Source: Flavobacteriales bacterium (lineage in GTDB: Bacteria; Bacteroidota; Bacteroidia; Flavobacteriales_D; Sanyastnellaceae). From it: DNA of 64,000 bases. The stretch lies in assembly GCA_027491075.1 (NCBI GenBank), contig JAIXWX010000019.1:1-64000 (forward strand), in the 5' to 3' direction. Position numbers and translations under genes: made by a program. The notes under the pieces were generated by a model. That model was not told where the DNA came from. It ran no database searches and was given only the letters and a program-made list of their open reading frames with translations. Below are positions 27,269 through 45,982 of this stretch, in pieces; position 1 is the first letter of the stretch; every line of letters starts with the position of its first letter.

Positions 27269-27300
27269 TCAATACGATTCAATAGAACTATGATTCAATA

Positions 27301-27332
27301 AAAAGCGATCCATAAACGGATCGCTTTTTTTT
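27301..27332 (+). terminator. Intrinsic terminator after pdhC
   Basis: Stem AAAAGCGATCC/GGATCGCTTTT with a 6-base loop (ATAAAC) and a following T run; the A-rich left arm makes it potentially bidirectional. It marks the end of the housekeeping block and the start of the accessory region. Confidence 0.85.
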
Positions 27333-27598
27333 ATCCTTTATTCGAGAATGTCTTCCGTCAATTCTACAAAAACACTCCCATATAAAATGACAACGCACTG
27401 AGCGAAGTGCGTGTTTAGCGGAATGCGTGACCTCCCCAATATTTCTGGGATGTAGCTTCACATCCCTATGGATAAACTATTAATTACATACATAGAAAAA
27501 ATCAAGAAAAAAACAACCCGTCATATCCTAGCGAAAAATTGATTAACTTAGCCTATACCCAATCAAAAGTTGGGATGCACTAAACCAAAACCACTACT
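27333..27598. other. Noncoding interval at the boundary of the accessory region
   Basis: No ORF is supported here. Two small hairpins are visible: ACGCACT/AGTGCGT (27393-27412) and GGGATGT/ACATCCC (27447-27466), neither followed by a T run. The remaining sequence is AT-rich and should contain the promoter of the gene at 27599, but no TAnnTTTG match was recognised. Confidence 0.5.
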
Positions 27599-28522
27599 AT
27601 GTTACGCTACTCTTTTTTTTGCGCAATTGCTTTTGCAATTATTATTTCCAACAGCGCTACTTCAATCGCCCAGCAATCCGCACCAATTCATCTTACGGGT
27701 AACGATCAAGATGCTTTTGTAAACATTGCTGTTGATGATAAAAACAAGGAGGCTTATGATCTCGAGAGTCCTAATCGAATTCACTTCTTTGCGAGTTCCG
27801 CCATCGCTACAAGCGAAAGCGCAGATAACTTTGCTACCAATGGTAGTTTTCAAATGCTTGCGGCATTTCATCCCAAATTACTTTTTGGAGCTGCATATAA
27901 CCCCATCGGTATTCAGCCAGAAAGTATTTCGAAAGATTCTATAAGCATCAACAATCTTCAGTTTCCCGAAGCTGGAAGCGCTGGTTTCATGGCCTCCATC
28001 TCTTGGCGACCTTTTATATTCAAAGACAACAGTTCCATGTTTGACTTCTTTCGACTTTCACCTACTGCTGAATTTTCTCTTAGAAACGTTAAGTTCAATT
28101 TAGCCACTACAAAGAGTTCAACATTGAGTGACTCTACAATACTGATCGAAAACACAATTGACGAAAGTAAGTTTACTGTAATCAACTATAACCTAGGGTT
28201 ACGTTTCGAGTACTTTCATATCAACAGGAGCGACCAAAGTAAAGTAATGATGATTGGACTCATGCCCTATCTGAACATTTTTAATATTCCAAATGAAGAT
28301 GCTCAAACCTTTTATTCTACATTGAAAACTAACAATACCGAACCAAATGGATCTCAAATCTATTCAGCAGGAGCGAAAATAACTCTAGGATATAAAAATG
28401 TGATCTTCTTCGCAGATCTAAGACAGAATATGAAATCTGAATTAAATGTAAGCGGCACCGACCTGGAGGGTTTTGCGTTCAATATTGGGACAAGTATTGT
28501 TTTCAAAATAAGAGAATTCTAA
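27599..28522 (+). CDS. Predicted outer-membrane beta-barrel protein, unknown family
   Basis: A 307-residue protein with a clear signal peptide ending near TSIAQQ. The remainder alternates polar and hydrophobic residues with repeated aromatic-ended strands (FGAAYNPIGI, FMASISWRPFIF, FRLSPTAEFSL, LGLRFEYFHI, VIFFADLRQ) and ends in a strand with a C-terminal Phe (SIVFKIREF), as in outer-membrane barrels. I do not recognise a named family. It is followed after nine bases by a second secreted protein, so they likely form an operon. Confidence 0.65.
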   Translation: MLRYSFFCAIAFAIIISNSATSIAQQSAPIHLTGNDQDAFVNIAVDDKNKEAYDLESPNRIHFFASSAIATSESADNFATNGSFQMLAAFHPKLLFGAAYNPIGIQPESISKDSISINNLQFPEAGSAGFMASISWRPFIFKDNSSMFDFFRLSPTAEFSLRNVKFNLATTKSSTLSDSTILIENTIDESKFTVINYNLGLRFEYFHINRSDQSKVMMIGLMPYLNIFNIPNEDAQTFYSTLKTNNTEPNGSQIYSAGAKITLGYKNVIFFADLRQNMKSELNVSGTDLEGFAFNIGTSIVFKIREF

Positions 28523-28531
28523 TTCACGAAT

Positions 28532-29833
28532 ATGAAACACTGGTTACTTTTCTCTATCTATACACTATACAGCGTTTACAATTGTATAGCTCAGTCAAAT
28601 TCCTCGGATTCGCTGCCTTATGTGATATACAGCGATGATTGTTGCAACACAAAAATTGAACAGAGTTACTTACGAAATTGTAATGGGTCGAGTAAATTTA
28701 TCAATCGAAAATCAAATCTTTATTTTTTTGAAAAAATTAATACTCATTCTATTCCTTCAACATTTTCAACTCAAGACCTTACTTACGTGAGTCCACGAGA
28801 ATGGCAAAAGAAACCATTTTTGCTTAATGCAGATCTCCGAACCGTAGCCCCTATCGGAGGTAAATGGTTTGGTCGATTTGTTATTCATTTAGAACCCTTT
28901 TTTAGAGTGCGCATATTTCGTAATGATTCCTCGAAGGGAGACTTATCAAGTCCAGTTCGAACGCCTAGTTATATGCCAGGTGCTTCAATCTATTTCACCT
29001 TAAACGGCTCAAAGTACTCTGCACCAAAACTTTTCAATGAAAATAATAATACAAACTTTTACCTAAGGGTTCGAGCATTTCATCACTCGAACGGACAAAA
29101 CCCAAATCCTCAAATCGACTCTTTGGGAACAATTAACCTACCTTCTCAACCAGGATACTTCAATAGGTACGATGGAGATTTTGGAATCAACCTTCATTGG
29201 GAAGTAGGTCTCGGAATGATTTTTAAATGCCGAAAATCCAAATTATCCAATCACTTGGGAGATTTCATTCATAAGATAAAAAGTGATCACCTTGCATTCT
29301 ACAATGTCTTTCATGAACGGAGTCTTTATCTTAGTTTTGAACGACCACTTTTCTTCCTTGCTACCACCTCAGAGCTCTATAATAGTGCAGACGGTGGTCA
29401 AGTTCAGTCTTATATTTATGGTACCGACCGAATCAATATTAAGTTCAGTGACATTTTCGGGAAGTGTGCGAGCGATTTAGTCAAACACGACAATGAATGG
29501 TATACAGTACAAAGACCCCGCTTCATAGAGCGTTTTCGATTTATTGCCGAGTTTTCCTACATAACGAACAGAGACTGGAAAAGAGGACCTGTAACCGATT
29601 TAAAGAATATTGGATATTTGGATCAAGAGCGATTTGGTTTGACATTAACCACCCATTTACGCATAGCAGGTTCAACTACTTCATTATTTCTTCAAGCAGG
29701 ATATTACGGCAGTGACATCTATAATGTGTATTTTCAGCAATCCATTTCATTTATAAGATTTGGATTGGGTCTGGGTATGTTTAGAAACCCTGAAAGAGCT
29801 GATCTTCCAGTGAATTCTATCAAAGCAAATTAG
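28532..29833 (+). CDS. Predicted outer-membrane or surface protein, unknown family
   Basis: A 433-residue protein with a signal peptide ending near NCIAQS. Its body is rich in aromatic residues and alternating strand patterns (FGRFVIHLEPFFRVRIF, FYLRVRAFHH, FGINLHWEVGLGMIF, FGLTLTTHLRIAG, TSLFLQAGYYG, FIRFGLGLGMF), suggesting a beta-barrel. A CC pair (DDCCNT) occurs early in the mature chain. No recognised domain. It lies between another putative barrel gene and a small HExxH protein, all on the same strand. Confidence 0.62.
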   Translation: MKHWLLFSIYTLYSVYNCIAQSNSSDSLPYVIYSDDCCNTKIEQSYLRNCNGSSKFINRKSNLYFFEKINTHSIPSTFSTQDLTYVSPREWQKKPFLLNADLRTVAPIGGKWFGRFVIHLEPFFRVRIFRNDSSKGDLSSPVRTPSYMPGASIYFTLNGSKYSAPKLFNENNNTNFYLRVRAFHHSNGQNPNPQIDSLGTINLPSQPGYFNRYDGDFGINLHWEVGLGMIFKCRKSKLSNHLGDFIHKIKSDHLAFYNVFHERSLYLSFERPLFFLATTSELYNSADGGQVQSYIYGTDRINIKFSDIFGKCASDLVKHDNEWYTVQRPRFIERFRFIAEFSYITNRDWKRGPVTDLKNIGYLDQERFGLTLTTHLRIAGSTTSLFLQAGYYGSDIYNVYFQQSISFIRFGLGLGMFRNPERADLPVNSIKAN

Positions 29834-29868
29834 TCAATCTAAAATATATGGAATAAAATCACAAAACA

Positions 29869-30393
29869 ATGAATAAAAAACTAACCTTCCAGCTCTTCCT
29901 ACTAATTATTAGTTTTCTCTTGGTATCTACCATTCAAGCACAAACAAATCGAATAGTTTACAAGGGTAAAAAAACAGTTCTGTCTAAAGCAGTCAAAGAG
30001 GCAAATCGCCTACTTAATGACTCTACGTTTTATAAGAATATCCGTTCTGTCTCCTCCTTTGATTCTACAAATTATAGTGTAGCTCAGATAAGCCGAGAGA
30101 TTCAAACCTTTCAAGGAGAAATTCAGATAAGATCTTATTGGAATCCTCTAGGGACAGCCAACGCTAAGACCTTAGAAAAGATCTCTGTCAATACATCCAA
30201 GCTAAATCGATATAAAGATCCATTGAAGAATCATAAAGACGTAGTAAACACGCTAATTCATGAATATGTGCATGCAGTAGACTATCATCTTGACGGTACG
30301 TTCAATTATAGTCATGACTTTAATTCCGAAGGCCAAGAAAACACAGCCCCTTGGAAAATCGGTTCCATAGCTGAAGACATGGCGCGTGAGTAA
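29869..30393 (+). CDS. Small secreted protein with HExxH metallopeptidase-like motif
   Basis: A 174-residue protein with a signal peptide ending near TIQAQT. Residues about 129-138 read LIHEYVHAVDYH, an HExxH zinc-binding motif with a further His five residues later, followed by an acidic segment that could supply another ligand. The short mature chain (about 150 residues) is small for a peptidase and I cannot name a family; a zinc-binding non-enzymatic role is possible. Downstream lies about 570 bp of apparently decayed coding sequence. Confidence 0.55.
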   Translation: MNKKLTFQLFLLIISFLLVSTIQAQTNRIVYKGKKTVLSKAVKEANRLLNDSTFYKNIRSVSSFDSTNYSVAQISREIQTFQGEIQIRSYWNPLGTANAKTLEKISVNTSKLNRYKDPLKNHKDVVNTLIHEYVHAVDYHLDGTFNYSHDFNSEGQENTAPWKIGSIAEDMARE

Positions 30394-30423
30394 TAAAGTT
30401 GAGAATATGAGTTAACAAATTAA

Positions 30424-30735
30424 AGGCAAAGCATCGAAGGCCAACGCCAAACAAACTTCAATGTTTGTGCTGGAGTAACATCTTGGGACAATAAACCAAA
30501 CTACAACTATATCGATGTTGTCTACAGCGATGTGGAAATTCAAGATGAATACTTTGACTTAACTCAGCGAACGAATGCCATCAAACCTAACATGTCAATA
30601 GAATTTTTAAAGTATAAAGAAGGATTCGATTATGATATTCAGCATCCGCGGAACATATTTTCATTCCAGAGATTGTACGAGAACAGATGTATAGATTTGA
30701 CATATCCAAAAGTAAATGCAAAAAGAAGCGTATGA
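30424..30735 (+). pseudogene. Decayed ORF fragment without a credible start
   Basis: An open stretch of about 103 codons with protein-like composition (for example NYNYIDVVYSDVEIQDEYFDL) that begins directly after an in-frame TAA and has only an internal GTG at 30532 as a possible start. It is in the same frame as the HExxH gene, but four in-frame stops separate them. It looks like the remnant of a longer gene. No family recognised. Confidence 0.4.
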
Positions 30736-30764
30736 ACTAACGAGCTGAGGTCACTGATTCATGA

Positions 30765-30962
30765 CCTGAGAACTTTTCAAATTTTACGTTCTATTACAGC
30801 AAATCCAACCCGGGCGCAGGACTAGAAGAGGGCACATTTATCTATCCCAAAACAGCGAGTGATGTATTAAATACAATCTACCCAGCAAATGCGAGCTTCC
30901 AGCTACATAATAGAATAATGGGGGATTATCTTGGGGGAGTGCATAGGGTGTATAATATCTGA
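30765..30962 (+). pseudogene. Decayed C-terminal ORF fragment
   Basis: A 65-codon open stretch in another frame ending at TGA 30960-30962, with protein-like content (GTFIYPKTASDVLNTIYPAN, GDYLGGVHRVYNI) and no start codon until near its end. It overlaps the tail of the minus-strand gene at 30926. Together with the preceding fragment it suggests a frameshifted or deleted gene of unknown family. Confidence 0.38.
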
Positions 30963-31687
30963 TCTTCGAATTCATCGAACGAAGCAGAAGCGATGATGGC
31001 ATAACTACTCATACAAACTTTCGTAATGTTGAGAGATAAACAATACTGTTCATCAAGCTTCAACCCTCTCGATTTACCAAATTCTTCTTCCAATTTTATT
31101 AATAAACCATCTCCATTGGTCGTTAGCAGCCAAGTGATAATCAGGCCATTCTCAATTTCAATAGCTCTAACCTTGACACAGGTGTGAACGACCTCCACTC
31201 CTTCATAAACAAGATTTAAAAGAGTAATCTCCGCCTTCAGCTCGAAATGTGCGTTGCCATCTGTCAGCATAGAAAACAACTCCGTATTAGAATAGTACTT
31301 GGATTCTTCTTCAATCTTACTGATCAATTCAGCCATTAAAGCCTTTTCGTGTTTTCCTATTTTTGCAGCTCCCCATGTGTCAGAAGGAATATAATACATT
31401 TTCACATCTGATAGCTCCATACTCAAGCCTTTGTCCAAGGAAAATCTAACCGTGGCAACAGCTTTCATATCATCATAAGGTCTCTCATAAGAAAAGTCTT
31501 TGCAAACTATTGTCAATGAGTCATAACCAAATTGCGAACATTCATATTGGCCATTTTCTCCTAAGATTTTAACAGAAGCATAAAACGCGCTATAAACATC
31601 GACCTGAGCTATTAATCTGTTAGAAAAGCTGAATATCAATGATGCGAGGATAATTGTTACTCTGAGTTTTGAAATTGTTGTTTTCAT
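30926..31687 (-). CDS. Secreted protein of unknown function, putative LytTR-regulon member
   Basis: A 253-residue protein with a signal peptide ending near NRLIAQVD. The body is mixed alpha/beta with few cysteines (CSQFGYD, VCKDFSY, EQYCLSL) and no motif that I recognise. It is divergent from the TPR histidine kinase gene. Upstream, a paired repeat element (31746-31781) sits exactly 36 bp from a -7-like AATGTTTG, the same geometry as in front of the kinase and the beta-helix gene, so it is probably coregulated with them. Confidence 0.65.
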   Translation of the reverse strand: MKTTISKLRVTIILASLIFSFSNRLIAQVDVYSAFYASVKILGENGQYECSQFGYDSLTIVCKDFSYERPYDDMKAVATVRFSLDKGLSMELSDVKMYYIPSDTWGAAKIGKHEKALMAELISKIEEESKYYSNTELFSMLTDGNAHFELKAEITLLNLVYEGVEVVHTCVKVRAIEIENGLIITWLLTTNGDGLLIKLEEEFGKSRGLKLDEQYCLSLNITKVCMSSYAIIASASFDEFEDQILYTLCTPPR

Positions 31688-31712
31688 GGTGTTTTATTTT
31701 TATTTGATGGGA

Positions 31713-31720
31713 CAAACATT
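31713..31720 (-). promoter_or_regulatory. -7-like element (AATGTTTG) of the gene at 30926-31687
   Basis: Minus-strand AATGTTTG differs from TAnnTTTG at one position and lies 25 bp upstream of the ATG at 31687. It begins exactly 36 bp downstream of the start of the promoter-proximal CTATCCC repeat of element 1. Confidence 0.5.
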
Positions 31721-31745
31721 CACCCATTTCTGAATAACACTTTCA

Positions 31746-31781
31746 AATTGGGATAGCCCCGCGAATTTTGGGATAATCTCC
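31746..31781 (-). promoter_or_regulatory. Regulator-binding element 1 (paired TATCCC repeats, 20-bp period)
   Basis: Plus strand carries TTGGGATA at 31748-31755 and again at 31768-31775, a 20-bp period. The whole 36-base element matches the inverse complement of 35069-35104 at 26 of 36 positions by hand count. It is oriented toward the minus-strand gene at 31687. Paired direct repeats about two helical turns apart are the typical layout of LytTR-domain binding sites. Confidence 0.65.
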
Positions 31782-31856
31782 ATATACAAAAACATACACT
31801 ATTGATTTTCATTATTTTAAATGATTTTCACATTTCGTTCCAATTAAAATTCTGAA

Positions 31857-31885
31857 TTATCACGGATTTTAGAAGTTTATCCCGA
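31857..31885 (+). promoter_or_regulatory. Regulator-binding element 3 upstream of the histidine kinase
   Basis: TTATCACGG at 31857-31865 and TTATCCCGA at 31877-31885, again a 20-bp period and the same orientation relative to the downstream gene as element 2. The second repeat starts exactly 36 bp before a -7-like CATATTTG (31913-31920). This suggests autoregulation of the two-component system. Confidence 0.6.
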
Positions 31886-31912
31886 AATAACAAAGGACTA
31901 CCACAGCACGAC

Positions 31913-31920
31913 CATATTTG
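31913..31920 (+). promoter_or_regulatory. -7-like element (CATATTTG) of the histidine kinase gene
   Basis: One mismatch to TAnnTTTG, no TTG at -33, as might be expected of an activator-dependent promoter. It lies 12 bp before the ATG at 31933. Confidence 0.5.
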
Positions 31921-31932
31921 TCCCAACAGATA

Positions 31933-33486
31933 ATGTTTAATAGAAAAATAAATACCTTAGTACTACTAAACTCCAAACCGAATTATCGCCTTATGATGAA
32001 ACTAATGACTTTTGAGAAGTATTTTATTCATATCATTCGATTCAAAAAAATTATCTTTGAAATACTCCTTTTAATCGTTGCGACCATCACAAATCACAAC
32101 TGTTTCTCTCAAACAAATTATGAACTTATCCAGGAATATGAAAAAATTAGTTCAGACTCACTAAAATGGCTCAAGGCAATTGACATCTTTAATAAAGTCG
32201 TACCTCATGACCTCGTGAATACCATTCGCTTTGCTGATGAAATAAAGTCAATGGCCGAAAACTCGACTAATAATAGAAAGAAGGCAGTAAACTTCCTTGT
32301 GCAATCGAAAAAATTCCAAGCGTTTAGAGATTATAACAACGTCATCTCCAGTGATAAAGAGGCTTTAAAACATGCGAGACAAGTTGGTGACACAACTCTT
32401 ATACTAAACTGCTGGGCTACACTGGCCACTAACCTCGCAGACGCATCACGTGAATCAGAGGCCATAAAAGAATTTGAAGCCATTCCAATATTTTACAAAA
32501 ACCTAGCAGACAAAGCCTTTTGGGGTAGATATTATTATGCATATGGAGCACTATGTGTCAATGTTTTCTCCAATGAAAAGGCCGTGAATCTTCTCAACAA
32601 GTGCGTTAGTTATTATGACTCTCCGGAAAGTCTTTCCAAGAAGCACCGAGCACAGTCTTATTTAGCGCAAGCCTACTATAATATAGGAGATGTAAAAAAG
32701 GCATTTTTAATTCTTGATGAAATGGGTAGAGATCACGCCATTGGTCAAATGTCCAAAAATGCTCAAGCTTCGTATTTTCTAACACTAACCAATTTACATT
32801 TCTATAATCAAAACTATGAAGCGTCTATAGCTGCAAATGAGCAATACACAGCAATAAAAAGAGAAAAATCACAAATCTCTGATATCGCTATAGCCGATTT
32901 GCAAAAAGCAAACTGTCTAGTGTACCTTGGAAAATTTGAAGAGGCGAAAGACGTTGCAAAAAACTCAATCGACGCTATCAAAAAATTTGACATACGCCAA
33001 GGAGATAAATCCCTTCATCTATTTCTTTCATTATATAATATAAAAAGAAAAAGATACAAGGAAGCAGAAACGCAACTCAAAAATCTACAAAAAATACTAG
33101 AAAAGGAAGTAATACCGGCAGAACTGGCAGAACTTCAAAAGCTAAAAGCGGAAATGTACTACTCTAAAGGAGATATTAAAAAAGCAGATAGCTGCATTGT
33201 TGCCTATGCTATTCTAGTATCCAAAAACTATGACAAAAAAACTAAGAGAGCTTTAATTAATAATATAAAGAACAACAACCCAAAAGTATCCGCATCAACT
33301 TTAGAGCTCATGAGTTTCATTGAGGATGATGAAGGTTACAAAAAATTAAATGGACTCTATAAAACCAAATCAATGGAAATCTTATACAGTGAAATAATAA
33401 ATGATCGTGTTAATGATTCCGATACAACACTCTCGCCATATAGTGTTTCATTAATGGATCTTGAAAAAAATACCAGACAAAGTTAA
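31933..33486 (+). CDS. TPR sensor part of a histidine kinase (5' part, ends at a frameshift)
   Basis: The N-terminal sensor of a TPR-type histidine kinase. A hydrophobic signal/anchor occurs at FEILLLIVATITNHNCFSQ, followed by a helical tetratricopeptide array (AQSYLAQAYYNIGDVKKAFL, AQASYFLTLTNLHFYNQNYEAS, ADLQKANCLVYLGKFEEAKD). The frame stops at 33484-33486, but the missing coiled-coil, membrane segment and kinase core continue in the -1 frame from an A7 run at 33464. I choose ATG 31933; the open frame begins at a TTG within the promoter element, and ATGs at 31993-32005 are alternatives. Either a mutation, a sequencing error or recoding joins it to the next entry. Confidence 0.75.
   Translation: MFNRKINTLVLLNSKPNYRLMMKLMTFEKYFIHIIRFKKIIFEILLLIVATITNHNCFSQTNYELIQEYEKISSDSLKWLKAIDIFNKVVPHDLVNTIRFADEIKSMAENSTNNRKKAVNFLVQSKKFQAFRDYNNVISSDKEALKHARQVGDTTLILNCWATLATNLADASRESEAIKEFEAIPIFYKNLADKAFWGRYYYAYGALCVNVFSNEKAVNLLNKCVSYYDSPESLSKKHRAQSYLAQAYYNIGDVKKAFLILDEMGRDHAIGQMSKNAQASYFLTLTNLHFYNQNYEASIAANEQYTAIKREKSQISDIAIADLQKANCLVYLGKFEEAKDVAKNSIDAIKKFDIRQGDKSLHLFLSLYNIKRKRYKEAETQLKNLQKILEKEVIPAELAELQKLKAEMYYSKGDIKKADSCIVAYAILVSKNYDKKTKRALINNIKNNNPKVSASTLELMSFIEDDEGYKKLNGLYKTKSMEILYSEIINDRVNDSDTTLSPYSVSLMDLEKNTRQS
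33464..33471 (+). other. Frameshift site AAAAAAAT in the histidine kinase gene
   Basis: Zero-frame codons are GAA AAA AAT then ACC. A -1 shift on A-AAA-AAT continues as TAC CAG ACA AAG TTA and reads through a coiled coil into the kinase. This is an X-XXY-YYZ slippery heptamer; a one-base deletion in an original A8 run gives the same result. Confidence 0.7.
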
Positions 33487-34220
33487 TTGAAAGGAAATCC
33501 AAGATAACAGAAACCCAGCTTGCCCTGCAAGAAGAACGCAACCGGTTGCAAGAGAGAAACAATACCCTCATTCTTGCCATCACCATTGGATTAATATTCG
33601 TTCTCGTCGGACTCGTATTTGTACTAAGACGCCTAAGAAGGGATAACAAAACTATCAAAGAACTGCGAGACGATGTGCACCACTTAGCAGACAATAATTT
33701 CGAACTAGTCAATCAACTCATTGAGTCAACTTCAGATCAAATGAACATTGATTTGACTTTCCTGCAATCTAGAATTATCAGCATTCAGAAGCTTCATGAA
33801 ATTTTATATAAAATAAAATCCATTGGAAATGTTCCAATGTACCCATTTTTTAATCAAATCACGCAGTCCATTAAAGAGCTGTATTCTCTGAGTATTCCGG
33901 TAAATATTAAAATTGATACCGATATTATACTTGATGAAAAAAGGGCAAAGCTCCTTGCACGCGTCGTAGGTGAATTGACCACAAACACTTTCAAATATGC
34001 ATTTACAGGTAATGATAACGGAGAGATAATAATAAAATTCACCCAGACGGAACAGCAGTTCCGACTAGAGTATAGCGATAATGGAAAAGGTTTTAGTGAA
34101 AATGTCTCCGACTCTTTCGGAAGAAGATTTATAAAAAACACCGTAAAATCCACTTTGAAAGGCACTCTTGAAATGTCTGGAACAGACGGAATGAAAGCAA
34201 TCATAGTATTCCCTACATAA
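33471..34220 (+). CDS. Histidine kinase core (3' part, HisKA_2-like and HATPase_c)
   Basis: In the -1 frame relative to the TPR part: a basic coiled coil (KLIERKSKITETQLALQEER), one membrane span (LILAITIGLIFVLVGLVFVL), then a dimerisation/phosphoacceptor helix with DDVHHLADNNFELVNQL, matching the HisKA_2 pattern where the second His region carries the phosphoryl group, and a HATPase_c domain with N-box GELTTNTFKYAF and G1 box SDNGKGF. The only possible independent start is a TTG at 33546; the first ATG is well inside the kinase, so the piece is unlikely to be a separate gene. The response regulator follows after ten bases. Confidence 0.75.
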   Translation, partial: YQTKLIERKSKITETQLALQEERNRLQERNNTLILAITIGLIFVLVGLVFVLRRLRRDNKTIKELRDDVHHLADNNFELVNQLIESTSDQMNIDLTFLQSRIISIQKLHEILYKIKSIGNVPMYPFFNQITQSIKELYSLSIPVNIKIDTDIILDEKRAKLLARVVGELTTNTFKYAFTGNDNGEIIIKFTQTEQQFRLEYSDNGKGFSENVSDSFGRRFIKNTVKSTLKGTLEMSGTDGMKAIIVFPT

Positions 34221-34230
34221 ACAAAAAATT

Positions 34231-35076
34231 ATGAGTAAATTAAAAGTACTTATTGTAGAAGATGTATTCGAGTTTTATAGTAGACTCGCAGCATTTTTCA
34301 TAGAAAAAGAATTTTATGTCATTCGTCCAGATGATGAAGACCTATTCGTAGATAGTTATGAACTAGCGGTTGAACTCTGTGCTAAACACGATCCCGATCT
34401 CGCAATATTGGACATTGAATTAAACGGAAAGAACAAAGATGAAATCGATCTAGCAATCTGGTTAAAGGAACAGTTCAATATTCCGGTGGTATTTCTTACA
34501 TCTAAAAATGAATATGGAAGTTTAGAACGCATCAAAAAATATCCTGACTTTAGATATTACTTAAAGGCCAACACCAAGGAAAAGCTGGCTGAATTGTGGT
34601 TCACGGTCCAACAGCTATTGGCCCAACCAAAAGTAGATTGTCTAGAGCATCAAGGAATTATTCTAGATGTTCAAACCGTTCCTTATTACTACTACAATGA
34701 CAAGAAAAAGTCGCAAGACACCTTTAAAGAAGAATTTGGAACCTATGACATACGAGAGCGACTGATCCGATTTTCAGAAATACAAGAAATCAAGAGTTCT
34801 AATAACGAAGGGTGGGGAAAAAATAAAATCGTCATTATTGAAAAGAGTAAGGCCAACGTTCATTTTATTCGTACCACGCTCAATAGTATTGAAAAGGAAC
34901 TCCCCTATTGTTTTGTGAGGATCAGTAATTCTATGATTATTTATGGTCGTTGGATCAACTCCAAAGGATCATCGGAAGATGTGTATTTCATGGATGATAC
35001 ACGCTACGAGGTAAAGAAAGATTTTGAAGGTCGGGATCTCGCCTTGCGCAAAATGAGACGTATTTATGGGAGATAA
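34231..35076 (+). CDS. Response regulator with divergent LytTR DNA-binding domain
   Basis: A 281-residue regulator. Receiver domain at residues 1-125 with acidic pocket E10/D11, phosphoacceptor D61 in LAILDIEL, and T/S in VVFLTSK. The C-terminal part (about 175-280) fits a LytTR domain: IRFSEIQEIKS, KANVHFIRTTLNSIEKELPY and CFVRISNSMIIYGRWI correspond to the usual strand, helix and F-x-R-x-(H)-x-S motif, with the customary His replaced by Ile-Ser. It is probably activated by the upstream kinase and is the likely reader of the three repeat elements; the last of these overlaps its own stop codon. Confidence 0.8.
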   Translation: MSKLKVLIVEDVFEFYSRLAAFFIEKEFYVIRPDDEDLFVDSYELAVELCAKHDPDLAILDIELNGKNKDEIDLAIWLKEQFNIPVVFLTSKNEYGSLERIKKYPDFRYYLKANTKEKLAELWFTVQQLLAQPKVDCLEHQGIILDVQTVPYYYYNDKKKSQDTFKEEFGTYDIRERLIRFSEIQEIKSSNNEGWGKNKIVIIEKSKANVHFIRTTLNSIEKELPYCFVRISNSMIIYGRWINSKGSSEDVYFMDDTRYEVKKDFEGRDLALRKMRRIYGR

Positions 35077-35104
35077 TCCCAAATAATCGGGATTTATCCC
35101 AATT
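35069..35104 (+). promoter_or_regulatory. Regulator-binding element 2 upstream of the beta-helix gene
   Basis: Repeats TAATCCCAA (from 35074) and TTATCCCAA (from 35094) at a 20-bp period. The element begins inside the last codons of the response regulator. The second repeat starts 36 bp before the -7-like TTTCTTTG at 35130-35137. It is the inverse counterpart of element 1. Confidence 0.65.
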
Positions 35105-35129
35105 CGAAAATTGCTAACAAAAACCACCA

Positions 35130-35137
35130 TTTCTTTG
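35130..35137 (+). promoter_or_regulatory. -7-like element (TTTCTTTG) of the beta-helix operon
   Basis: One mismatch to TAnnTTTG; TTG at 35111-35113 could be a -33 element with a 16-bp spacer. It lies 43 bp upstream of the ATG at 35181. Confidence 0.45.
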
Positions 35138-35180
35138 GTCACAAATCAAATAAATCAATTAATTTTTAATATCTAAAACT

Positions 35181-36275
35181 ATGAAAAAAAGTTTCATTCT
35201 CATCGCAGTAATTATTCTTCAAGCATCTTTGGCCTCAGCCAAAATCTGGAGAGTAAATAACCAATCCACTTACCCAGAAAACGGAAGTTTCGGCGAATCA
35301 TTAGGTGGGAATTCAGCAAATCCAGTTTTTGCACAGATAAGTCAAGCACTTAACTACTCATCATTCAGCGATGGAGATACAGTTCACGTTGAGGCCAGCG
35401 TAAATGACTACAACTCCATTGACATTCAACGTCCTTGCACTCTCATCGGTGGTGGCTACTTTCCTATTGAAAATGATCCTATTCACCCCAATGAATTAGA
35501 AACTAGAGTGGCAGGAATTGAAATAAACTCTTCCAACGTATCACTAATTGGAATTTATGTTAACTCAGGCTACACCGACTTAAACGGCTCAAATATTCTA
35601 GTAGAAAGATGTCGCTTTCATGGGGGGGTCGATATAGGATATGACGGACCAACTGCCTATAATGGAATATTCGTTAGAAGAAACTACTTTAATGGTGGCA
35701 CTGCAGGGCTTATAATACCAGCACCAAGTTTTGATGGTTTACCGACGAACGTTTATATACAAAACAATATATTCAGAGGCAGCGTAACATCCAATGGAAA
35801 TTATATGACCATCACTGCCTTCGAAAATAACACCATTGTTCCAACAGGCTCTGGTCAGACAGTTGTGAGGATTAATACAGGATCTTTTAGAAATAATATT
35901 CTCAGAGGAACAAATTACGATTTAATAATCAATGGAAGTAATTATGCAAATGTGACGAATAATCTTGGCACTACAGTCGCGCAGTTTCCAGCCAATACAG
36001 GGAATCAGATATTGCCCGTCACGGCAAGCGATGATGCGCTCTTTGTTGGCAGCAACATTGCGACTGCCACCGACAAAGACTTTCCTTTAACCCCCAGCCA
36101 GGCTGCTACCTACCTCGGCAATGACGGCACTCAGGTTGGAGCATTTGGAGGTGCTTTTCCATACTCAATAAGCGGTGTTGGTCCTATTCCCTACATCTAT
36201 GAAATGCAATCCACAGGCGTTGCGACTCCATCCTCAGGTCTCATCATCAATGTTTCAGCTAAATCTTCAAACTAA
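35181..36275 (+). CDS. Secreted right-handed beta-helix protein
   Basis: A 364-residue protein with a signal peptide ending near ASLASAK. The start of the mature chain (WRVNNQSTY, DTVHVEAS) and repeated short Asn-rich strands (NILVERCRFHGG, NGIFVRRNYFNGG, NVYIQNNIFRG, SFRNNILRGTN) form a parallel beta-helix as in pectate-lyase-like and DUF1565 proteins. No catalytic signature was recognised, so adhesion or polysaccharide binding is possible. It is preceded by regulator element 2 and followed after five bases by the chimeric gene. Confidence 0.72.
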   Translation: MKKSFILIAVIILQASLASAKIWRVNNQSTYPENGSFGESLGGNSANPVFAQISQALNYSSFSDGDTVHVEASVNDYNSIDIQRPCTLIGGGYFPIENDPIHPNELETRVAGIEINSSNVSLIGIYVNSGYTDLNGSNILVERCRFHGGVDIGYDGPTAYNGIFVRRNYFNGGTAGLIIPAPSFDGLPTNVYIQNNIFRGSVTSNGNYMTITAFENNTIVPTGSGQTVVRINTGSFRNNILRGTNYDLIINGSNYANVTNNLGTTVAQFPANTGNQILPVTASDDALFVGSNIATATDKDFPLTPSQAATYLGNDGTQVGAFGGAFPYSISGVGPIPYIYEMQSTGVATPSSGLIINVSAKSSN

Positions 36276-36280
36276 ATCCT

Positions 36281-37510
36281 ATGAAGACCCTATCAATCTT
36301 AATTATAACATTGATGTTTGCGGTCTCCGTTTCTGCACAAACAACCGTCACTGAATTTGAATACTTCATTGATCAAGGTGCAGAATTTGGAGAAGCCATC
36401 AGCGTCGATGTGGCTGACAACGCCACGCAAAACCAGAGCTTCAATATCCCATTCACTAATCTCTCTCCTGGCATACATACTGTATTCATGAGATGCAAAA
36501 ACAACTTGGGTTTGTGGAGCCACACTGTGAGTCGTGTTTTCCTTGTTCAGGAAAACCAGCCGGCCAGCGCAGTGACTGTTATCGAATATTCAATCGATCA
36601 AATGCCATATTTTGGAGAGGCAAATACCATCGTATTGACCGAACCAAGTTCAGACGTGAATTTTGCTATTGAAATATCACCAAGTGAATTGGAGAACTTA
36701 TCTGAGGGCCCTCATGTGGTGTATGTTAGAGTAAAAGACAACAATGATGAATGGAGCCATACCAATAGCATTGTTTTCATCAAAGTAGATCCATTAAACG
36801 CCCCGATTGTTGGTGCCGAATTTTTTATCGGTGAGGACCCAGGTGTTGGAATGGCCGAAGCACAAGGCGATTATATGGCATTCGCTCAACCTGCAATGCA
36901 GGGTGTATTTCCCTTAACTATACCCCCTAATTTGCTCATAAATGGATTTAACTTAGTTGGGATACGCACAAAAAATAGCAATGGCGAATGGTCACATACG
37001 CGCTTCTTTGAAGTAATAGTGCAGATTGAGGAGTTTGTAACAGGTACTATTCAATCATCAAGTGAAACGATATGTTATAACACCATCCCTAATGCTATCT
37101 CCGTAACAGCCGCAGCAGAAGCTATTAATGGTGGCATTAGCTATCAATGGTATTCCAGAAGTGGAATACACACTGCATCTGGCGCTCTGTCTTTGTGGAA
37201 TATCTTAGATGGCGAAAACATGCCGCACCCATCGCTGAATAAGCATACTATAAATATCAATGTTAACACTGGTGAAGAAGTAATTTTGAATGATATTCTA
37301 AAACCTCATCAAGTATCCATCCTACCCAATAAAGTAATTACTAAATTAAAAAAGACCATCAATTATCGCAATGAATTTCCATTTTGCTTTGAGATGCCAA
37401 CTAATTTCTTCATTACTAATGACGGTATTGGTTTTTTATTCAACCCATATAAAGTAGCACCATTTTCATCCGGCTATGTTGCTGCTTTTTTAAACAACGA
37501 AGAACTTTAA
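36281..37510 (+). CDS. Chimeric ORF: WSHT-repeat secreted protein fused to a DUF3298/RsiV-like C-terminus
   Basis: 409 residues with a signal peptide ending near VSVSAQ. Residues 25-250 hold three repeats of about 75 residues, each starting EYFID/EYSID/EFFIG and ending WSHT, then the beginning of an Ig-like unit (TICYNTIPNAISVTA, ISYQWYS). At about residue 290-300 the character changes abruptly: the rest (LSLWNIL, NINVNTGEEVILNDILKP, ITNDGIGFLFNPYKVAPFSSG) is the C-terminus of a DUF3298/RsiV-like domain. The expected sorting domain is missing. This reads as an in-frame deletion fusion of two genes; whether it is functional is unknown. Confidence 0.65.
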   Translation: MKTLSILIITLMFAVSVSAQTTVTEFEYFIDQGAEFGEAISVDVADNATQNQSFNIPFTNLSPGIHTVFMRCKNNLGLWSHTVSRVFLVQENQPASAVTVIEYSIDQMPYFGEANTIVLTEPSSDVNFAIEISPSELENLSEGPHVVYVRVKDNNDEWSHTNSIVFIKVDPLNAPIVGAEFFIGEDPGVGMAEAQGDYMAFAQPAMQGVFPLTIPPNLLINGFNLVGIRTKNSNGEWSHTRFFEVIVQIEEFVTGTIQSSSETICYNTIPNAISVTAAAEAINGGISYQWYSRSGIHTASGALSLWNILDGENMPHPSLNKHTININVNTGEEVILNDILKPHQVSILPNKVITKLKKTINYRNEFPFCFEMPTNFFITNDGIGFLFNPYKVAPFSSGYVAAFLNNEEL

Positions 37511-37884
37511 TCCCCGTGCACCCACCTAATACCATTCGGAAGCACAATTCGCAAGGACTGATACGCAATTCTAGTCACTCGCATCTAGTCGTTAGTATCT
37601 TTTCCTATTCCCTCGCCCCTTTCATCTCAAAAAAACCACTAAATGATTTATTGGAGAGAATCATGTTATTATCGGCTTCAATAGAATTTATTTCTCTTTG
37701 AATAGTTGAAAGAAAACCTTGACCAAAAGAGAGTCCCGAAAAATAAAAAACGAGAATCATAAAGGCAATTGTGTTTCGTAGCATAACAAGGAGGATTTGG
37801 TAAATAGTTTTAACTTATAACGGTCCTAAAATTAGTAAAGCTCTTGCCTAATTCCTCAAGCCCTTATTTCACAAACTTTCCGCA
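37511..37884. other. Intergenic region between convergent transcription units
   Basis: It holds one truncated minus-strand ORF (37605-37784) and otherwise AT-rich sequence. A plus-strand 61-codon ORF at 37516 has no protein-like character. No terminator hairpin with a T run was found for either the chimeric gene or the caspase operon. Confidence 0.5.
37605..37784 (-). pseudogene. Truncated secreted-protein N-terminus (59 aa)
   Basis: An ATG-initiated ORF on the minus strand with a good signal peptide (MLRNTIAFMILVFYFSGLSF then GQG) and a short hydrophilic remainder ending at TAG. It resembles the first exported segment of a longer protein cut off by a deletion. It lies beside the breakpoint implied by the chimeric gene, which supports past rearrangement. 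It could also be a genuine small secreted peptide. Confidence 0.35.
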
Positions 37885-40800
37885 CTAGTTTCTACGTAAT
37901 ATTTGCCAGTCCAACAACGGATTAATATTAGTCAAACTAATCTTCTGAATCGCCTGTTTATCTAATTCATTATATTCCTTTATTCGTCTAAAAAGTTCCA
38001 TTAAATCAACTTTGCCATCAAATGAATTCAACACATTTTCAAAGACCACCCCGAAATAACCATCACTCGCCTTTTCTAATCCATAAGAAGAACTTAAAAC
38101 TTGCACCCCTGTAGGTAAACTATAATTAAAGAACATCTTATAGTACAACTCTATATCCTTTGCAGCGAATTCAGGATTGTTTAAACCAAGTCCTGAATGA
38201 CACGCGTCAATCATTAATAGCTTTTTAGCCATTGGTAATTTTTGCAACTCTCCTATCAACTCTGAATAGGAAAGATATTCAAGACTACGGTCGGCGACTG
38301 TTGGGTCAAGAGGCAACACAAAGTTAAACTCATCCATTAAAATTCCATGACCAGACAAAAGCATCACAAATTCGTCATTAATAGATGACATGGCCAATGA
38401 ACGAATTGTGTCTAATAACGCGGCTTTTGAAGCTTCGTTGTTATAAATCTTATGCACAATCACATTCTCCTTTTCATTCAAGGGACTATATTCCTTGAAA
38501 AGTCTTTCTATTCTTGAACAATCTTCCAAGGGCTTTGAAAGTCTATCCAGGCCTTGCGGATAGGAATCCACACCGACGAGTATTAAATGCACTTTTCTAC
38601 TTGATAGTGTCACCGAATCAACTATTCTCCTTATAAGCACATATTTCGAAATCGATTTATAACCTTTATAGCTAGTAGCAACAAACTTTAAATTATTTTC
38701 TCCAAACATTAATGAAACTGCAAGGTTTCCATTTACTTCTGTTTGATTGTCTATTAGAATCGTCTTCCACGGAATATTGTTGTTATATACTTCTAAACGA
38801 GTTATTGGGTCATTGATTTCTGAGTTTAATGAATAGTCCACACTAACAGTTTCTGCGCTACCGTTATAATCGAGGTATCCCGAAATCCGAATCTCTGGTA
38901 AATTATCCGATAAACGCTCTTGATCCGAATTTTTGCCACCTATGATTGAAGTGCGATAATTAGCTAAATCACGCAATAGTGAGTGTGATGTGCTGGCCGA
39001 ATCGAGTCCTGAAATTCGATTGAACAATTTCAAAATGTTATCCGGTCTATTCTTCAGCAAATCAAATTGCTCAAGTGGATATGAGTTTCCATCATAACTA
39101 AATGCAATCGTTCTTATGCTCGCATTCTCTGTAGTATAAAAGCCCTTATCGTCATAAATGATCCCATTATCAGCGCCTAAACTAACAATATATGAAAACA
39201 TAGGTACATCAATTACACTTTGAACAGTTGACAAATCCCATACCTTAAACTGATTATCTGTTCCGGAGGATAACAAGAACTGTTCGTCAGAACTGAAATA
39301 AACCTCCCCACCATGTCCAACAATCTTCTTAACCATTCTCCCTTTTCGATTCAAATCATAAACTTTAATCGTATTAACCAAATCATCAGACGAAGAAAGA
39401 GCAAGAAATCTTCCACTCTCACTAAGATAAGGCTTTAATCTACCTGATGATTTTTGCTTTATTTTAATCTTCTTTCCTGACCTACAATTCCAAACGTAAT
39501 ACTTGGCCTTTCTTTCTTTTACTTTTCTAGCATATACCAAATTGTTCCAAGCGGAATCAACCTCAATGAAATTCACAATGGTCCTCTCAATTCGAGAATT
39601 CCTAATGTTATTAACAACACTAAAATCAATCTCACCTCCTTCAATGGACTTACCCTCAAGATATCGCAAAAAACTTTGCTCAAAGCGGAAACTAATTGGA
39701 GCTATGGACTGAACAGGACTTTTTTTATCAGTTGTCAAATCATAAATTCTCATTTCAAATCCATTGTACGGAAGAAATAACAAAAACTTACCATCAGCAG
39801 AAGTTTCAATTCGATTAGGCACTTGTCTCAAAAAATACTTTTCTTTTTCCTCCTCTGACAGACGTTTTCTAATTTGCTGCTCAGAACTTCGCTTATTCGA
39901 TGTATTATTCCCTGGAGACTCCAAAACTTCCTTAGCTCTACTTAATTCGTCAACGGTTGAAACTATATTCTTTTTACTCAACTTTTTGGGATTTCCCAAG
40001 CTCAAAGGAATAGAAGATATTACTTTCATTTTTCCCAATCTGTCCTCTAATTTTTCTGCCTTTTTTGAAATTATCCCCATGCCATCGCCAAATTTTTCAA
40101 GTCTTTTATCAAAATTTTTTGGTTCTTTTATTCCCTTTAAAACGGAATACGATGAAGCCTTCCTAGTTGGAGTTGAATAACTCCATTGAATCAATTGGTA
40201 AGAACTATCTAGAAAAAAAATGGTGCGTGAAGCAGCATCGAAACAAGCATCCAAAATCTTATTATTCCACGTGAGGCTATCTTCAAGTGATCCATTTAGT
40301 CCATTGACATAGTGTATTTCCTTGTTCTCAAAACCTAGTGCCTCCTTGGAAGTGGGATCCCACTTAATGCAATAATCTTTCGAAACTTTGATTAGGCGCT
40401 TATTGTCATTCGTAAGAAAATTATTCCACCATAAATAATTTGCGGTATCCTTTACAAAGTACATTGTTTTGTCTGGAGAATAAAGCCATGACTCATCATG
40501 GATGATCACATCATTGCTTAGATCCTTAAAGTTAATGGAAGCATAGCCGAGTAAACTCGAATTATCTTTTGACAATTGATTTAGTGACAAACTCTTTAAA
40601 TTATTACCCTTTCTATACACTCCTGTTATGAGTCTTTCTTTCGAAAAATCTTCCACTTTAAGCACTGCTAGTGGGAACTCACTACCAAAAGACCAACTAT
40701 AGGTTTTGCTATCGAGAGAAAAAGCCCGAAAACAAATTTGTTGAAACCTAGATGTTGTTCCTGTTATGTAAACAGTGTTCGATGAAGGTTCAAAATAAAA

Positions 40801-42084
40801 GGCATTCACCTTTTCGAATAATTCAAGTCCCTGGTTTTCTGGATAGAATAGCGACGGTAAAGAAACTCCATCATTCAAATTTATAGCCTCCAAACGTTCA
40901 TCATCGTACAATACTAAGAGCAATTCATTCGTAAGTGTAAGGGCTTTAACTTTACTTAAGGTAATAGTTCGCAATAGCGGTAAGTACAATGCTGTGTCTC
41001 TTTTGACCTGACCTTTTTTGTCGTAGGTCCTAATAACCTTAGATAAATCATACATTTCAACAATGCTCTCATTATCTGTAGATCGAGCGCGCACAAATAT
41101 TGATTCGTTTGGATTTATACTGAAAGAAGTCCAATTGTAACTATTCGATAATAGTGCAATAAGTCGTCTAGTCTTTTTCTCCATCTTCCGATCAGTATCA
41201 GCAGTATAGAGTAAACTATTACCCAAAACACTAAAGTTCTCACTTGGACTCATCCAGATGGATTTTAATCTACTACTAGTCAAGACATAATCTATCGGTA
41301 CTTCCGAGATTAACTTCTTTTTACCTTTAAAACTCTCATTATAAAAACAGACCTTCATATCATCTCTTTTCCATTTCATTCTATGCAGGTTAAAAATGCC
41401 ATGTTCCCATCCTAAAGAATCTGGAGAATAACTTTTACCATAACTTTTTATTCGTCGCTTAAAACTTCTAAATCGCTTATTGAAATCCCTCTTTGAGCCG
41501 GCGACATTCTTATATCTAATGTAAAATATGGAGTGTTCTTTCGTAGATAGATAGTTTCCGTCATTGATAGTTTCAGAAAAGTACTCCGTCCATTCCTCTT
41601 CATATTTCTCATTTAACTTCTCCACCGCACTCTCATAACGTCGCATACTCTTTTCACTTTCATTTCGGTCACTATACTTTAGCTTCAGCAAATCATATTC
41701 ATTCCCATTTATTTTTTCATCAAGAGGCAAATCCTCAATTTTTACCAGTTTGTTTGACTTAACTTCCTTGAAAATAATCCTATTATTCATAACAAAAGAC
41801 AAGATTATATCAATGGAATCATTTACAAACTTCAATTGAGATATAGGAAGCTTCCTATCATAACCTACGGTCAATTCACCAGATTCTAATCCCGTTTCAA
41901 GATCCCACAATTTTATTTTGTAACCGTCGGTAGTAGCCGCGGTTCGTTTATTAGGGTGAACTGTTATTTCTTTAACAGGAGCAAAGTGACCTGATTGAAC
42001 AATAGTCTTAACCTGCGCTGATCCCTGATAAATCATAAAAACTAAAGCTAAAATGAAGGAAACTTTTAAAATAGAGTAGTACAT
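37885..42084 (-). CDS. Secreted beta-propeller (WD40-like) protein with C-terminal caspase (C14) domain
   Basis: 1,399 residues from ATG 42084, with a signal peptide ending near YQGSAQ. Several WD40/propeller blades are visible at both ends of the long N-terminal region (FAPVKEITVHPNKRTAATTDG then KLWDLETG; GHGGEVYFSSDEQFLLSSGTD then FKVWDLS), with a Lys/Glu-rich insert in the middle. The last 237 residues are a caspase-like domain: LILVGVDSY, catalytic His about 1246 in LLSGHGI, catalytic Cys about 1295 in MIDACHSG. The export signal implies action outside the cytoplasm. It is the last gene of a three-gene operon with a CHASE2 sensor. The target is unknown. Confidence 0.85.
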   Translation of the reverse strand: MYYSILKVSFILALVFMIYQGSAQVKTIVQSGHFAPVKEITVHPNKRTAATTDGYKIKLWDLETGLESGELTVGYDRKLPISQLKFVNDSIDIILSFVMNNRIIFKEVKSNKLVKIEDLPLDEKINGNEYDLLKLKYSDRNESEKSMRRYESAVEKLNEKYEEEWTEYFSETINDGNYLSTKEHSIFYIRYKNVAGSKRDFNKRFRSFKRRIKSYGKSYSPDSLGWEHGIFNLHRMKWKRDDMKVCFYNESFKGKKKLISEVPIDYVLTSSRLKSIWMSPSENFSVLGNSLLYTADTDRKMEKKTRRLIALLSNSYNWTSFSINPNESIFVRARSTDNESIVEMYDLSKVIRTYDKKGQVKRDTALYLPLLRTITLSKVKALTLTNELLLVLYDDERLEAINLNDGVSLPSLFYPENQGLELFEKVNAFYFEPSSNTVYITGTTSRFQQICFRAFSLDSKTYSWSFGSEFPLAVLKVEDFSKERLITGVYRKGNNLKSLSLNQLSKDNSSLLGYASINFKDLSNDVIIHDESWLYSPDKTMYFVKDTANYLWWNNFLTNDNKRLIKVSKDYCIKWDPTSKEALGFENKEIHYVNGLNGSLEDSLTWNNKILDACFDAASRTIFFLDSSYQLIQWSYSTPTRKASSYSVLKGIKEPKNFDKRLEKFGDGMGIISKKAEKLEDRLGKMKVISSIPLSLGNPKKLSKKNIVSTVDELSRAKEVLESPGNNTSNKRSSEQQIRKRLSEEEKEKYFLRQVPNRIETSADGKFLLFLPYNGFEMRIYDLTTDKKSPVQSIAPISFRFEQSFLRYLEGKSIEGGEIDFSVVNNIRNSRIERTIVNFIEVDSAWNNLVYARKVKERKAKYYVWNCRSGKKIKIKQKSSGRLKPYLSESGRFLALSSSDDLVNTIKVYDLNRKGRMVKKIVGHGGEVYFSSDEQFLLSSGTDNQFKVWDLSTVQSVIDVPMFSYIVSLGADNGIIYDDKGFYTTENASIRTIAFSYDGNSYPLEQFDLLKNRPDNILKLFNRISGLDSASTSHSLLRDLANYRTSIIGGKNSDQERLSDNLPEIRISGYLDYNGSAETVSVDYSLNSEINDPITRLEVYNNNIPWKTILIDNQTEVNGNLAVSLMFGENNLKFVATSYKGYKSISKYVLIRRIVDSVTLSSRKVHLILVGVDSYPQGLDRLSKPLEDCSRIERLFKEYSPLNEKENVIVHKIYNNEASKAALLDTIRSLAMSSINDEFVMLLSGHGILMDEFNFVLPLDPTVADRSLEYLSYSELIGELQKLPMAKKLLMIDACHSGLGLNNPEFAAKDIELYYKMFFNYSLPTGVQVLSSSYGLEKASDGYFGVVFENVLNSFDGKVDLMELFRRIKEYNELDKQAIQKISLTNINPLLDWQILRRN

Positions 42085-42115
42085 GTTAAAAATGATTAGA
42101 GTAAGAATTTTTGAT

Positions 42116-43507: not shown

Positions 43508-43513
43508 GTAATC

Positions 43514-44290
43514 TTACTTATGTAAAGAAGAAATAAAGCTCTCTAATGATCTCCGATCAACGGTTTTTATTTGTGGGAATTCGTATAAAAAGATCGAAGC
43601 CCATTCGCTAGGAGAAAAGTTACATGAAAGGTAATCTCCTAAAGCTAACTCCATTTGCTTTTCTTCTTCTTCGGAAACAAAATGAAGCACCCGTTTTTCT
43701 TTTCTACTTTTATATGTTAGGTTAATTGTTGCTTCTCTACTATGATTGTCATCATCCTTCAATTTAAAAAAATATGACGAGCCAATTCTGTCCAAACTCA
43801 GAAAATCGGAATCCTTCGAATCATTGGATATTTCGAACTTTACCAAGTTCGCATCAAAAACTGAAGAATCTATAGAAACCTCCAGGGTTCCAAAAACAAA
43901 AAGGGTATCTTTCCATGAGTCTAATAAAACACCATAGTTCTTATAGTATTTTTCATCAGACTTGGTCGCAAGCAAGGTTATGTTCTTTTCTTTGGAATTT
44001 TTATAAACCCATAAAAAAGGTTTATGACCAATGAGGTTGATTGCCATGATCCATGAAATGACCTTATTAGATACAAGCATTGGTTTAACTTCTTTTCTAA
44101 GATCCTCTGGAGTAGTTATTCGCTGCACTATTTTCGTTACTCTTTCGCGTAACGCTTCGTCTGGAGGAAAAGACCTAAAATCTACCGAATTAGAATCTCC
44201 AGAACTAACATTAGTGGTTATTGGAGAATTCGAGCAAAGAAAAACCATTATCACAGTGAGAAGGCCAATTAGCCCAAAAGAGAATTTCAT
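43514..44290 (-). CDS. Exported protein of unknown function, first gene of the caspase operon
   Basis: A 258-residue protein with an N-terminal signal sequence (FGLIGLLTVIMVFLC); the Cys could be lipidated although the lipobox is poor. The body has a helical N-terminal region, a beta-rich centre and a helical C-terminus (FSPSEWASIFLYEFPQIK). I do not recognise a domain. Cotranscription with CHASE2 and caspase genes suggests a role as an accessory or regulatory subunit. A TAAGTTTG promoter element precedes it. Confidence 0.62.
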   Translation of the reverse strand: MKFSFGLIGLLTVIMVFLCSNSPITTNVSSGDSNSVDFRSFPPDEALRERVTKIVQRITTPEDLRKEVKPMLVSNKVISWIMAINLIGHKPFLWVYKNSKEKNITLLATKSDEKYYKNYGVLLDSWKDTLFVFGTLEVSIDSSVFDANLVKFEISNDSKDSDFLSLDRIGSSYFFKLKDDDNHSREATINLTYKSRKEKRVLHFVSEEEEKQMELALGDYLSCNFSPSEWASIFLYEFPQIKTVDRRSLESFISSLHK

Positions 44291-44314
44291 AGTAAGTTAA
44301 TTAAGTTATGCAAA

Positions 44315-44322
44315 CAAACTTA
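44315..44322 (-). promoter_or_regulatory. Putative -7 element of the caspase operon (TAAGTTTG)
   Basis: Minus-strand TAAGTTTG matches TAnnTTTG exactly, 24 bp upstream of the first ATG of the operon (44290). No -33 TTG recognised. Confidence 0.45.
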
Positions 44323-44447
44323 TTAAATGTAACCTTAAAATAAAAGAAAACCCTATTAAGAATATGATAAATCAGGGATTAAGCCGCATTAAAGCTATTT
44401 CTATCGACTCTCTTCGAGTTTAAAAACTCACTATTGCTTTCTCTGAT

Positions 44448-45941: not shown

Positions 45942-45982
45942 GGAGCAAATATAACCTGTCGGGGACGTTGTATATTTACCCC

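Follow-up and report, generated by a model that had tools for sequence, protein, structure and literature searches.

We propose that a small LytTR-type regulon lies in a 64,000-nucleotide stretch of a Flavobacteriales genome (positions 1 to 64,000 of contig JAIXWX010000019.1, assembly GCA_027491075.1; we call this whole stretch the window). The response regulator encoded at 34231 probably binds three pairs of TTATCCC-like direct repeats, activating its own operon, the divergent gene for a secreted protein, and a downstream operon for secreted proteins. The initial annotation of this DNA had called it a compact LytTR-type regulon, and at the level of the sequence our analysis supports that interpretation. 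We favor a LytTR two-component system that regulates itself and acts at three local promoters, because of the geometry of the sites, the published LytTR sites, and the cases described for LytTR regulatory systems (LRS) in Bacteroides. The repeats, their uniqueness among the intergenic regions of the genome, their fixed distance from a -7-like element, and the LytTR homology of the regulator can all be seen directly.

Geometry and rarity of the repeat pairs

The three pairs and their -7-like elements are listed below, with the mismatches of each pair counted against TTATCCCRA-N11-TTATCCCRA.

31748..31776, minus strand: repeat pair 1, distal repeat 31776-31768 and proximal repeat 31756-31748 (TTATCCCAA/CTATCCCAA, 1 mismatch), 5' of the secreted-protein gene at 30926..31687
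31713..31720 (read 31720-31713), minus strand: -7-like element AATGTTTG, belonging to pair 1
31857..31885, plus strand: repeat pair 2, distal repeat 31857-31865 and proximal repeat 31877-31885 (TTATCACGG/TTATCCCGA, 2 mismatches), 5' of the kinase-regulator operon
31913..31920, plus strand: -7-like element CATATTTG, belonging to pair 2
35074..35102, plus strand: repeat pair 3, distal repeat 35074-35082, overlapping the regulator's stop codon, and proximal repeat 35094-35102 (TAATCCCAA/TTATCCCAA, 1 mismatch)
35130..35137, plus strand: -7-like element TTTCTTTG, belonging to pair 3

The period is 20 bp (units of 9+11+9) in all three pairs. This confirms the paired repeats of the initial annotation, whose ranges were a few bases wider at sites 1 and 3. 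Each -7-like element has one mismatch to TAnnTTTG and is thus imperfect, as had been claimed. From the start of the proximal repeat to the start of the -7-like element is exactly 36 bp at each of the three promoters, and this claimed distance also holds up: when we scanned offsets 0 to 99 at the three sites, the summed mismatch to TAnnTTTG was 5 or less only at offset 36. For each of three offset ranges, none of 20,000 trials with dinucleotide-shuffled downstream stretches gave a shared offset with at most 1 mismatch at all three sites (the 1-mismatch threshold was chosen after inspecting the sites).

The arrangement also fits LytTR sites, because these are reported to have repeats of 9–11 nt with 11–13 nt between them (PMC4847170). 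The window has such a layout, 9-N11-9 before a -7-like element, at three places.

We searched the genome (3,021,296 bases, or 3.02 Mb, in 34 contigs) for similar pairs. With up to 2 mismatches allowed, it has 4 matches, versus 0.79 expected, and 3 of the 4 are inside 3.4 kb; for three such matches in a given 3.4 kb, P is about 1e-10. The fourth match sits inside an open reading frame (ORF) of 373 amino acids, which we take (by eye) to be dnaN. At up to 3 mismatches, the window has 4 matches (the three of the cluster, and one with 3 mismatches) versus 0.16 expected, as the mean of shuffles. The entire genome has 14, versus 10 for a reversed-pattern control and 11.5 expected from the base composition of the window. 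All 11 matches outside of the cluster are inside ORFs of at least 100 amino acids, and the only intergenic pairs in the genome at this threshold are the three cluster sites, which sit inside the 3.4 kb surrounding the regulator gene. Pairs scattered at random across the genome, without promoters, would have counted against the initial annotation; instead, only the cluster's pairs lie outside of ORFs. Just one of the 11 other matches (L011, 3 mismatches, in a 285-amino-acid ORF, opposite strand) has a -7-like string with 1 mismatch at offset 36.

The 273 loci that we examined from other genomes (2.17 Mb, with some overlap) contain one pair at up to 2 mismatches, without a -7 element at 36, and no pair at up to 3 mismatches that has this element at 36. 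The exact pattern had no match in 299 loci, and it misses the window's three sites too. Given the shuffle counts for the offset and the clustering of matches in the genome, chance is a very unlikely explanation.

In Flavobacterium psychrophilum, the -7 box of sigma-A promoters is at -12 to -5 (PMC9723704, which is our source for both the consensus and its position). If the -7-like elements of the window are placed likewise, then each pair would span about -68 to -40, with the repeats at about -68 to -60 and -48 to -40, and transcription would be expected to start near 31708 (minus strand), 31925 (plus strand), and 35142 (plus strand). We propose that the phosphorylated regulator docks on each 9-N11-9 direct repeat via its LytTR domain, with one monomer per half-site and the half-sites about two helical turns apart. 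The bound dimer would lie just upstream of the -33 contact of RNA polymerase, which is a usual place for an activator. The kinase-regulator operon would then be under positive autoregulation, and the same regulator would switch on the divergent secreted protein and the downstream secreted-protein operon. Binding, phosphorylation, activation rather than repression, and autoregulation are the parts of this proposal that we infer.

A -33 element is not consistently present: one promoter has TTTG 23 nt 5' of the -7 element, another has TTG 16 nt 5' of it, and the third has none. The imperfect -7 boxes and the lack of a consistent -33 element suggest that these promoters need activation.

The regulator and its kinase

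The genes of the putative two-component system are:

31933..33486, plus strand: histidine kinase, first part, with a signal-peptide-like N-terminus (by eye) and a TPR sensor region
33464..33470, plus strand: A7 run, the apparent -1 shift point of the kinase frame, between the TPR sensor and the transmembrane and kinase parts
33465..34220, plus strand: histidine kinase, second part, with a coiled coil and a transmembrane stretch (by eye), HisKA_2, and HATPase_c
34231..35076, plus strand: response regulator, 281 amino acids, with a receiver domain and a divergent C-terminal LytTR domain (motif FVRISNS)

The receiver domain of the regulator matches Pfam's Response_reg at 30.3 bits, versus a cut-off of 30.2. 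It has the phospho-acceptor aspartate: E10, D11, D61, T90, and K112 are all present (we assigned their roles by eye). The C-terminal part is, from its sequence features, a divergent LytTR domain. In isolation, it matches Pfam's LytTR with E = 0.00064 (E = 0.00037 for a shorter cut). We also built a profile from 122 LytTR domains of the order, including those of this genome but not the regulator itself; the regulator scored 22.0 bits with it, while the best of 1000 shuffles scored 10.8, and the alignment stops just past FVRISNSMIIYGRWI. With hhalign, comparing the regulator to the six other LytTR proteins of its own genome gave a probability of 53.9% and E = 0.00013 over 35 columns. Furthermore, the residues that contact DNA are retained. 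The LytTR motif is FhRhHRS, and the AgrA version is FFRCHNS, in which R198, N201, and S202 contact DNA (PMC4227749). FVRISNS keeps R, N, and S at these positions. The match to the isolated domain, the profile score above shuffles, and the retained contact residues are why we assign the domain to LytTR, and so the LytTR-type regulator of the initial annotation stands as a divergent one, though it is below Pfam's cut-off.

The kinase is not a single open frame in the assembly. Its start could be the in-frame ATG at 31933 or at 31993 (the mechanical ORF opens at the TTG at 31918), and the TPR sensor part, whose N-terminus resembles a signal peptide, probably lies outside of the inner membrane. 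The second part retains the HH of the H-box, the TN of the N-box, and DNG.G, while the first N of the N-box is G. A related kinase (L058) is unbroken and reads ELEKKYETERKERQI, whereas the window's kinase has DLEK in one of its frames and KKYQTKLIERKSKI in the second. The break may be a base-calling or assembly error, a true disruption, or slippage. The RNA 3' of the A7 run folds no better than shuffles (z = 0.36), so a programmed frameshift has no support beyond the run itself. The initial annotation had listed the kinase gene among the genes served. Pair 2 lies upstream of it and the kinase motifs are kept, with the caveat that the gene is in two frames.

Evidence against and alternative explanations

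Several observations weigh against our proposal. For the full-length regulator, no match to Pfam's LytTR was reported at E ≤ 0.1. The isolated domain, at 20.3 and 21.1 bits, did not reach the curated cut-off of 22.6, and the alignment spans only positions 18–63 of the model's 98. The histidine of the motif is a serine in the regulator; F.R...S occurs in 67 of the 122 related domains, and one of these 67 has the same change. As a check of the LytTR fold, which is made mainly of beta strands, AlphaFold with the single sequence and no alignment gave a pLDDT of 34.9 and a pTM of 0.29. Both mismatches of pair 2 fall in its distal repeat. Because the kinase frame is split, the two-component system may be damaged. 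We found no orthologs of the regulator, and hence have no comparison for the conservation of the sites. Also, repeat pairs of 20–21 bp beside the LytTR genes of relatives showed no clear excess over control regions.

The search for orthologs covered several sets of genomes. The full regulator had matches in 51 of 60 relatives, to the receiver part only (apart from its own gene), with one weak match reaching residue 236. The C-terminal part was found in 1 of 395 genomes of the class, which is its own genome. At E ≤ 0.05 it had matches in 21 of 399 genomes of the order, its own included, and the others were weak (E from 0.002 to 0.05). A peptide scan of the GTDB species genomes returned 55 stretches, and none was confirmed.

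The survey of repeat pairs used 66 stretches around LytTR genes and kinases, one syntenic stretch from the same-genus genome G002, and loci from earlier searches. At a score of at least 16, and without a control set, there were 6 matches at 20–21 bp versus 15 at the other 23 periods (199 regions). At a score of at least 15, LytTR-adjacent regions (n = 132) had 7 matches at 20–21 bp and 17 over the remaining 23 periods; the corresponding counts were 2 and 4 in the rest of these loci's regions (n = 69), and 6 and 30 in control regions (n = 150, from 20 control stretches). By eye, 3 of the 6 control matches look like 7-bp tandem repeats, all in a single stretch (L200); two control stretches hold a LytTR gene, and none of the 6 matches is in them. 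A general rule of 20–21-bp pairs at the LytTR genes of relatives was dropped, as the signal in the first count was not clear against the controls.

In the course of this survey we noticed two individual pairs. At L100:5149-5246 (L100/L023, from G055:C153), the gap that separates a LytTR regulator gene from the next one holds two 15-bp direct repeats on the minus strand (GTCGTTCRCTGAAAA), spaced at exactly 20 bp and followed by a perfect TAGGTTTG. Judging from these repeats, it is likely an independent LytTR site. The other (L050, in G000:C22 near 291000) is in the window's own genome, beside another LytTR gene: two 14-bp repeats that agree in 12 of 14 letters, spaced at 21 bp, with a different, TTTTTTTGAGAA-like half-site.

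The pairs might instead be the operators of another DNA-binding protein, such as one of the six other LytTR proteins in the genome. All six exceed Pfam's cut-off and match better than the regulator at 34231, whose binding to the pairs is something that we infer. However, the sites all lie around that regulator's gene, with no other such pair outside of ORFs, and G002 lacks, at the matching place, the segment that carries the cluster. One of the other LytTR genes (on C22, at L050) adjoins a possible 21-bp pair of a different sequence, although such pairs occur in control regions too. Overall, we consider another protein to be unlikely. We also considered that the same regulator, at the same sites, might be a repressor or a mixed switch. 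The sign of regulation is not given by the sequence alone, and since pair 3 shares bases with the regulator's stop codon, it may be crossed by transcripts of the operon upstream. But a pair that is upstream of the core promoter, and not on top of it, together with the imperfect -7 boxes and the inconsistent -33 element, points to activation, and we view repression or a mixed switch as rather improbable.

The remaining explanations do not involve a transcriptional regulator. The consensus of the DnaA box is TTATCCACA, with which TTATCCCAA has 7 of 9 letters in common. None of the six repeat copies has the ACA end, though, and chance is argued against by the offset shuffles and the genome counts, so that DnaA boxes or chance AT-rich matches deserve hardly any credence. 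RNA hairpins or terminators, rather than protein-binding DNA, are also very improbable. The RNA of pair 3 does fold at -15.8 kcal/mol (z = -2.35; 2 of 200 shuffles were as good), but for pairs 1 and 2 the folding does not surpass that of shuffles (z = -0.48 and -0.37), pair 3 has no T run after it, and what the pairs have in common is a direct repeat set at a constant distance from a -7 box.

Putative target genes, surroundings, and known systems

Besides the kinase and the regulator, three genes are predicted to be served:

30926..31687, minus strand: putative secreted protein, 253 amino acids, with a signal-peptide-like N-terminus (by eye); no Pfam or NCBIfam family reported
35181..36275, plus strand: putative secreted protein, 364 amino acids, a beta-helix according to the initial annotation; no Pfam family reported
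36281..37510, plus strand: putative secreted protein, 409 amino acids, with a Y_Y_Y domain at the N-terminus and a DUF3298 stretch at the C-terminus

We looked for relatives of the protein at 35181 in 298 other genomes of the order and found weak ones in 4; their upstream regions contain no repeat pairs at 8 of 9 letters and periods 17–24. In G040 (L199), such a relative is followed, 5 bases on, by a protein of at least 492 amino acids that by eye resembles the N-terminal half of the protein at 36281..37510. The window's protein may therefore be a fusion. Between a SprT-like ORF and the secreted-protein gene at 30926, about 0.5 kb (30394-30925) has no long ORF and is possibly a decayed gene.

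The cluster lies between aceF, which ends at 27268, and an SSF transporter gene (44448-45995). GC content is about 0.35 through much of this interval, down from about 0.43, and rises to 0.44 at 36–37 kb. In G002, the corresponding aceF and SSF genes are about 0.5 kb apart, with one ORF of 148 amino acids between them. Since G002, our single comparator, lacks it, we describe 27269-44447 as an accessory, mostly low-GC segment of about 17 kb that was either inserted here or lost in G002, as read from the two sequences. Among the best 80 of 534 aceF loci (a mixed sample, which includes Crocinitomicaceae and unclassified Bacteroidetes), a single one includes the SSF gene within the stretch that was retrieved, and we take it to be G002 itself. 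The island genes that we tried, which did not include the kinase, had no matches in these 80. One could imagine a horizontally acquired, self-contained cassette whose recognizable sites all lie within 3.4 kb and serve only itself and the adjacent secreted proteins, and whose kinase is made from two frames with slippage at A7 setting the linkage of sensor to kinase, but we see this as improbable. We also noticed that the SSF gene at the edge of the segment belongs to an SSF/recR block, and that an ORF of 1415 amino acids at 37885-42132 combines WD40 repeats with a caspase domain, Peptidase_C14 (E = 7.8e-9 for the caspase model of PADLOC).

Like AgrA, YpdB, and YehT, the window's system has a receiver and a LytTR domain, two direct repeats at a matching spacing, and a contact motif of the FhRhHRS type (PMC4227749, PMC4847170). 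Unlike in those systems, the half-site is TTATCCCRA, the LytTR domain is partly aligned and below Pfam's cut-off, and the promoter core is the Bacteroidota type, TAnnTTTG. Also, the proximal repeat would begin at about -48, while the center of the AgrA site is given as about -60.

In LRS, autoregulatory direct repeats closely precede the promoter, and for Bacteroides two LRS-like cases are predicted, with repeats of 11 bp, a gap of 11 bp, and a TATCTTTG -7 box (PMC6193735). The window is similar in combining a repeat pair, an 11-bp gap, and a -7 box. However, LRS couple a LytTR protein with a membrane inhibitor, while here we find a HisKA_2/HATPase_c kinase and a receiver domain. Because of this kinase partner and the receiver domain, the window's system is a two-component system and not an LRS (LRS membrane proteins were not searched for as a family). 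Judging from titles and the starts of abstracts, we found no measured LytTR site from Bacteroidota in the open-access literature; the closest is the predicted Bacteroides pair (PMC6193735).

Within the same order, a HisKA_2 kinase is followed by a LytTR regulator at five other loci: G046:C232, G050:C2, G055:C153, G010:C91, and G038:C1. The kinases at all of these but G055:C153 were listed at 31–32% identity to the window's kinase. The LytTR domains score 58–75 bits against the local profile at four of the five loci and 74 bits in Pfam at G038:C1, while the window's falls short of the cut-off. At up to 2 mismatches, TTATCCC pairs are absent from all five loci.

If our proposal is correct, then secreted proteins of unknown function would be tied to a signal. 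With one regulator, a defined half-site, three promoters of the same geometry, and no other intergenic copy, the locus would be a readily testable case of a LytTR activator at a Bacteroidota -7/-33 promoter. The general design is already known, and the window's locus is a new example of it in a Flavobacteriales-like bacterium.

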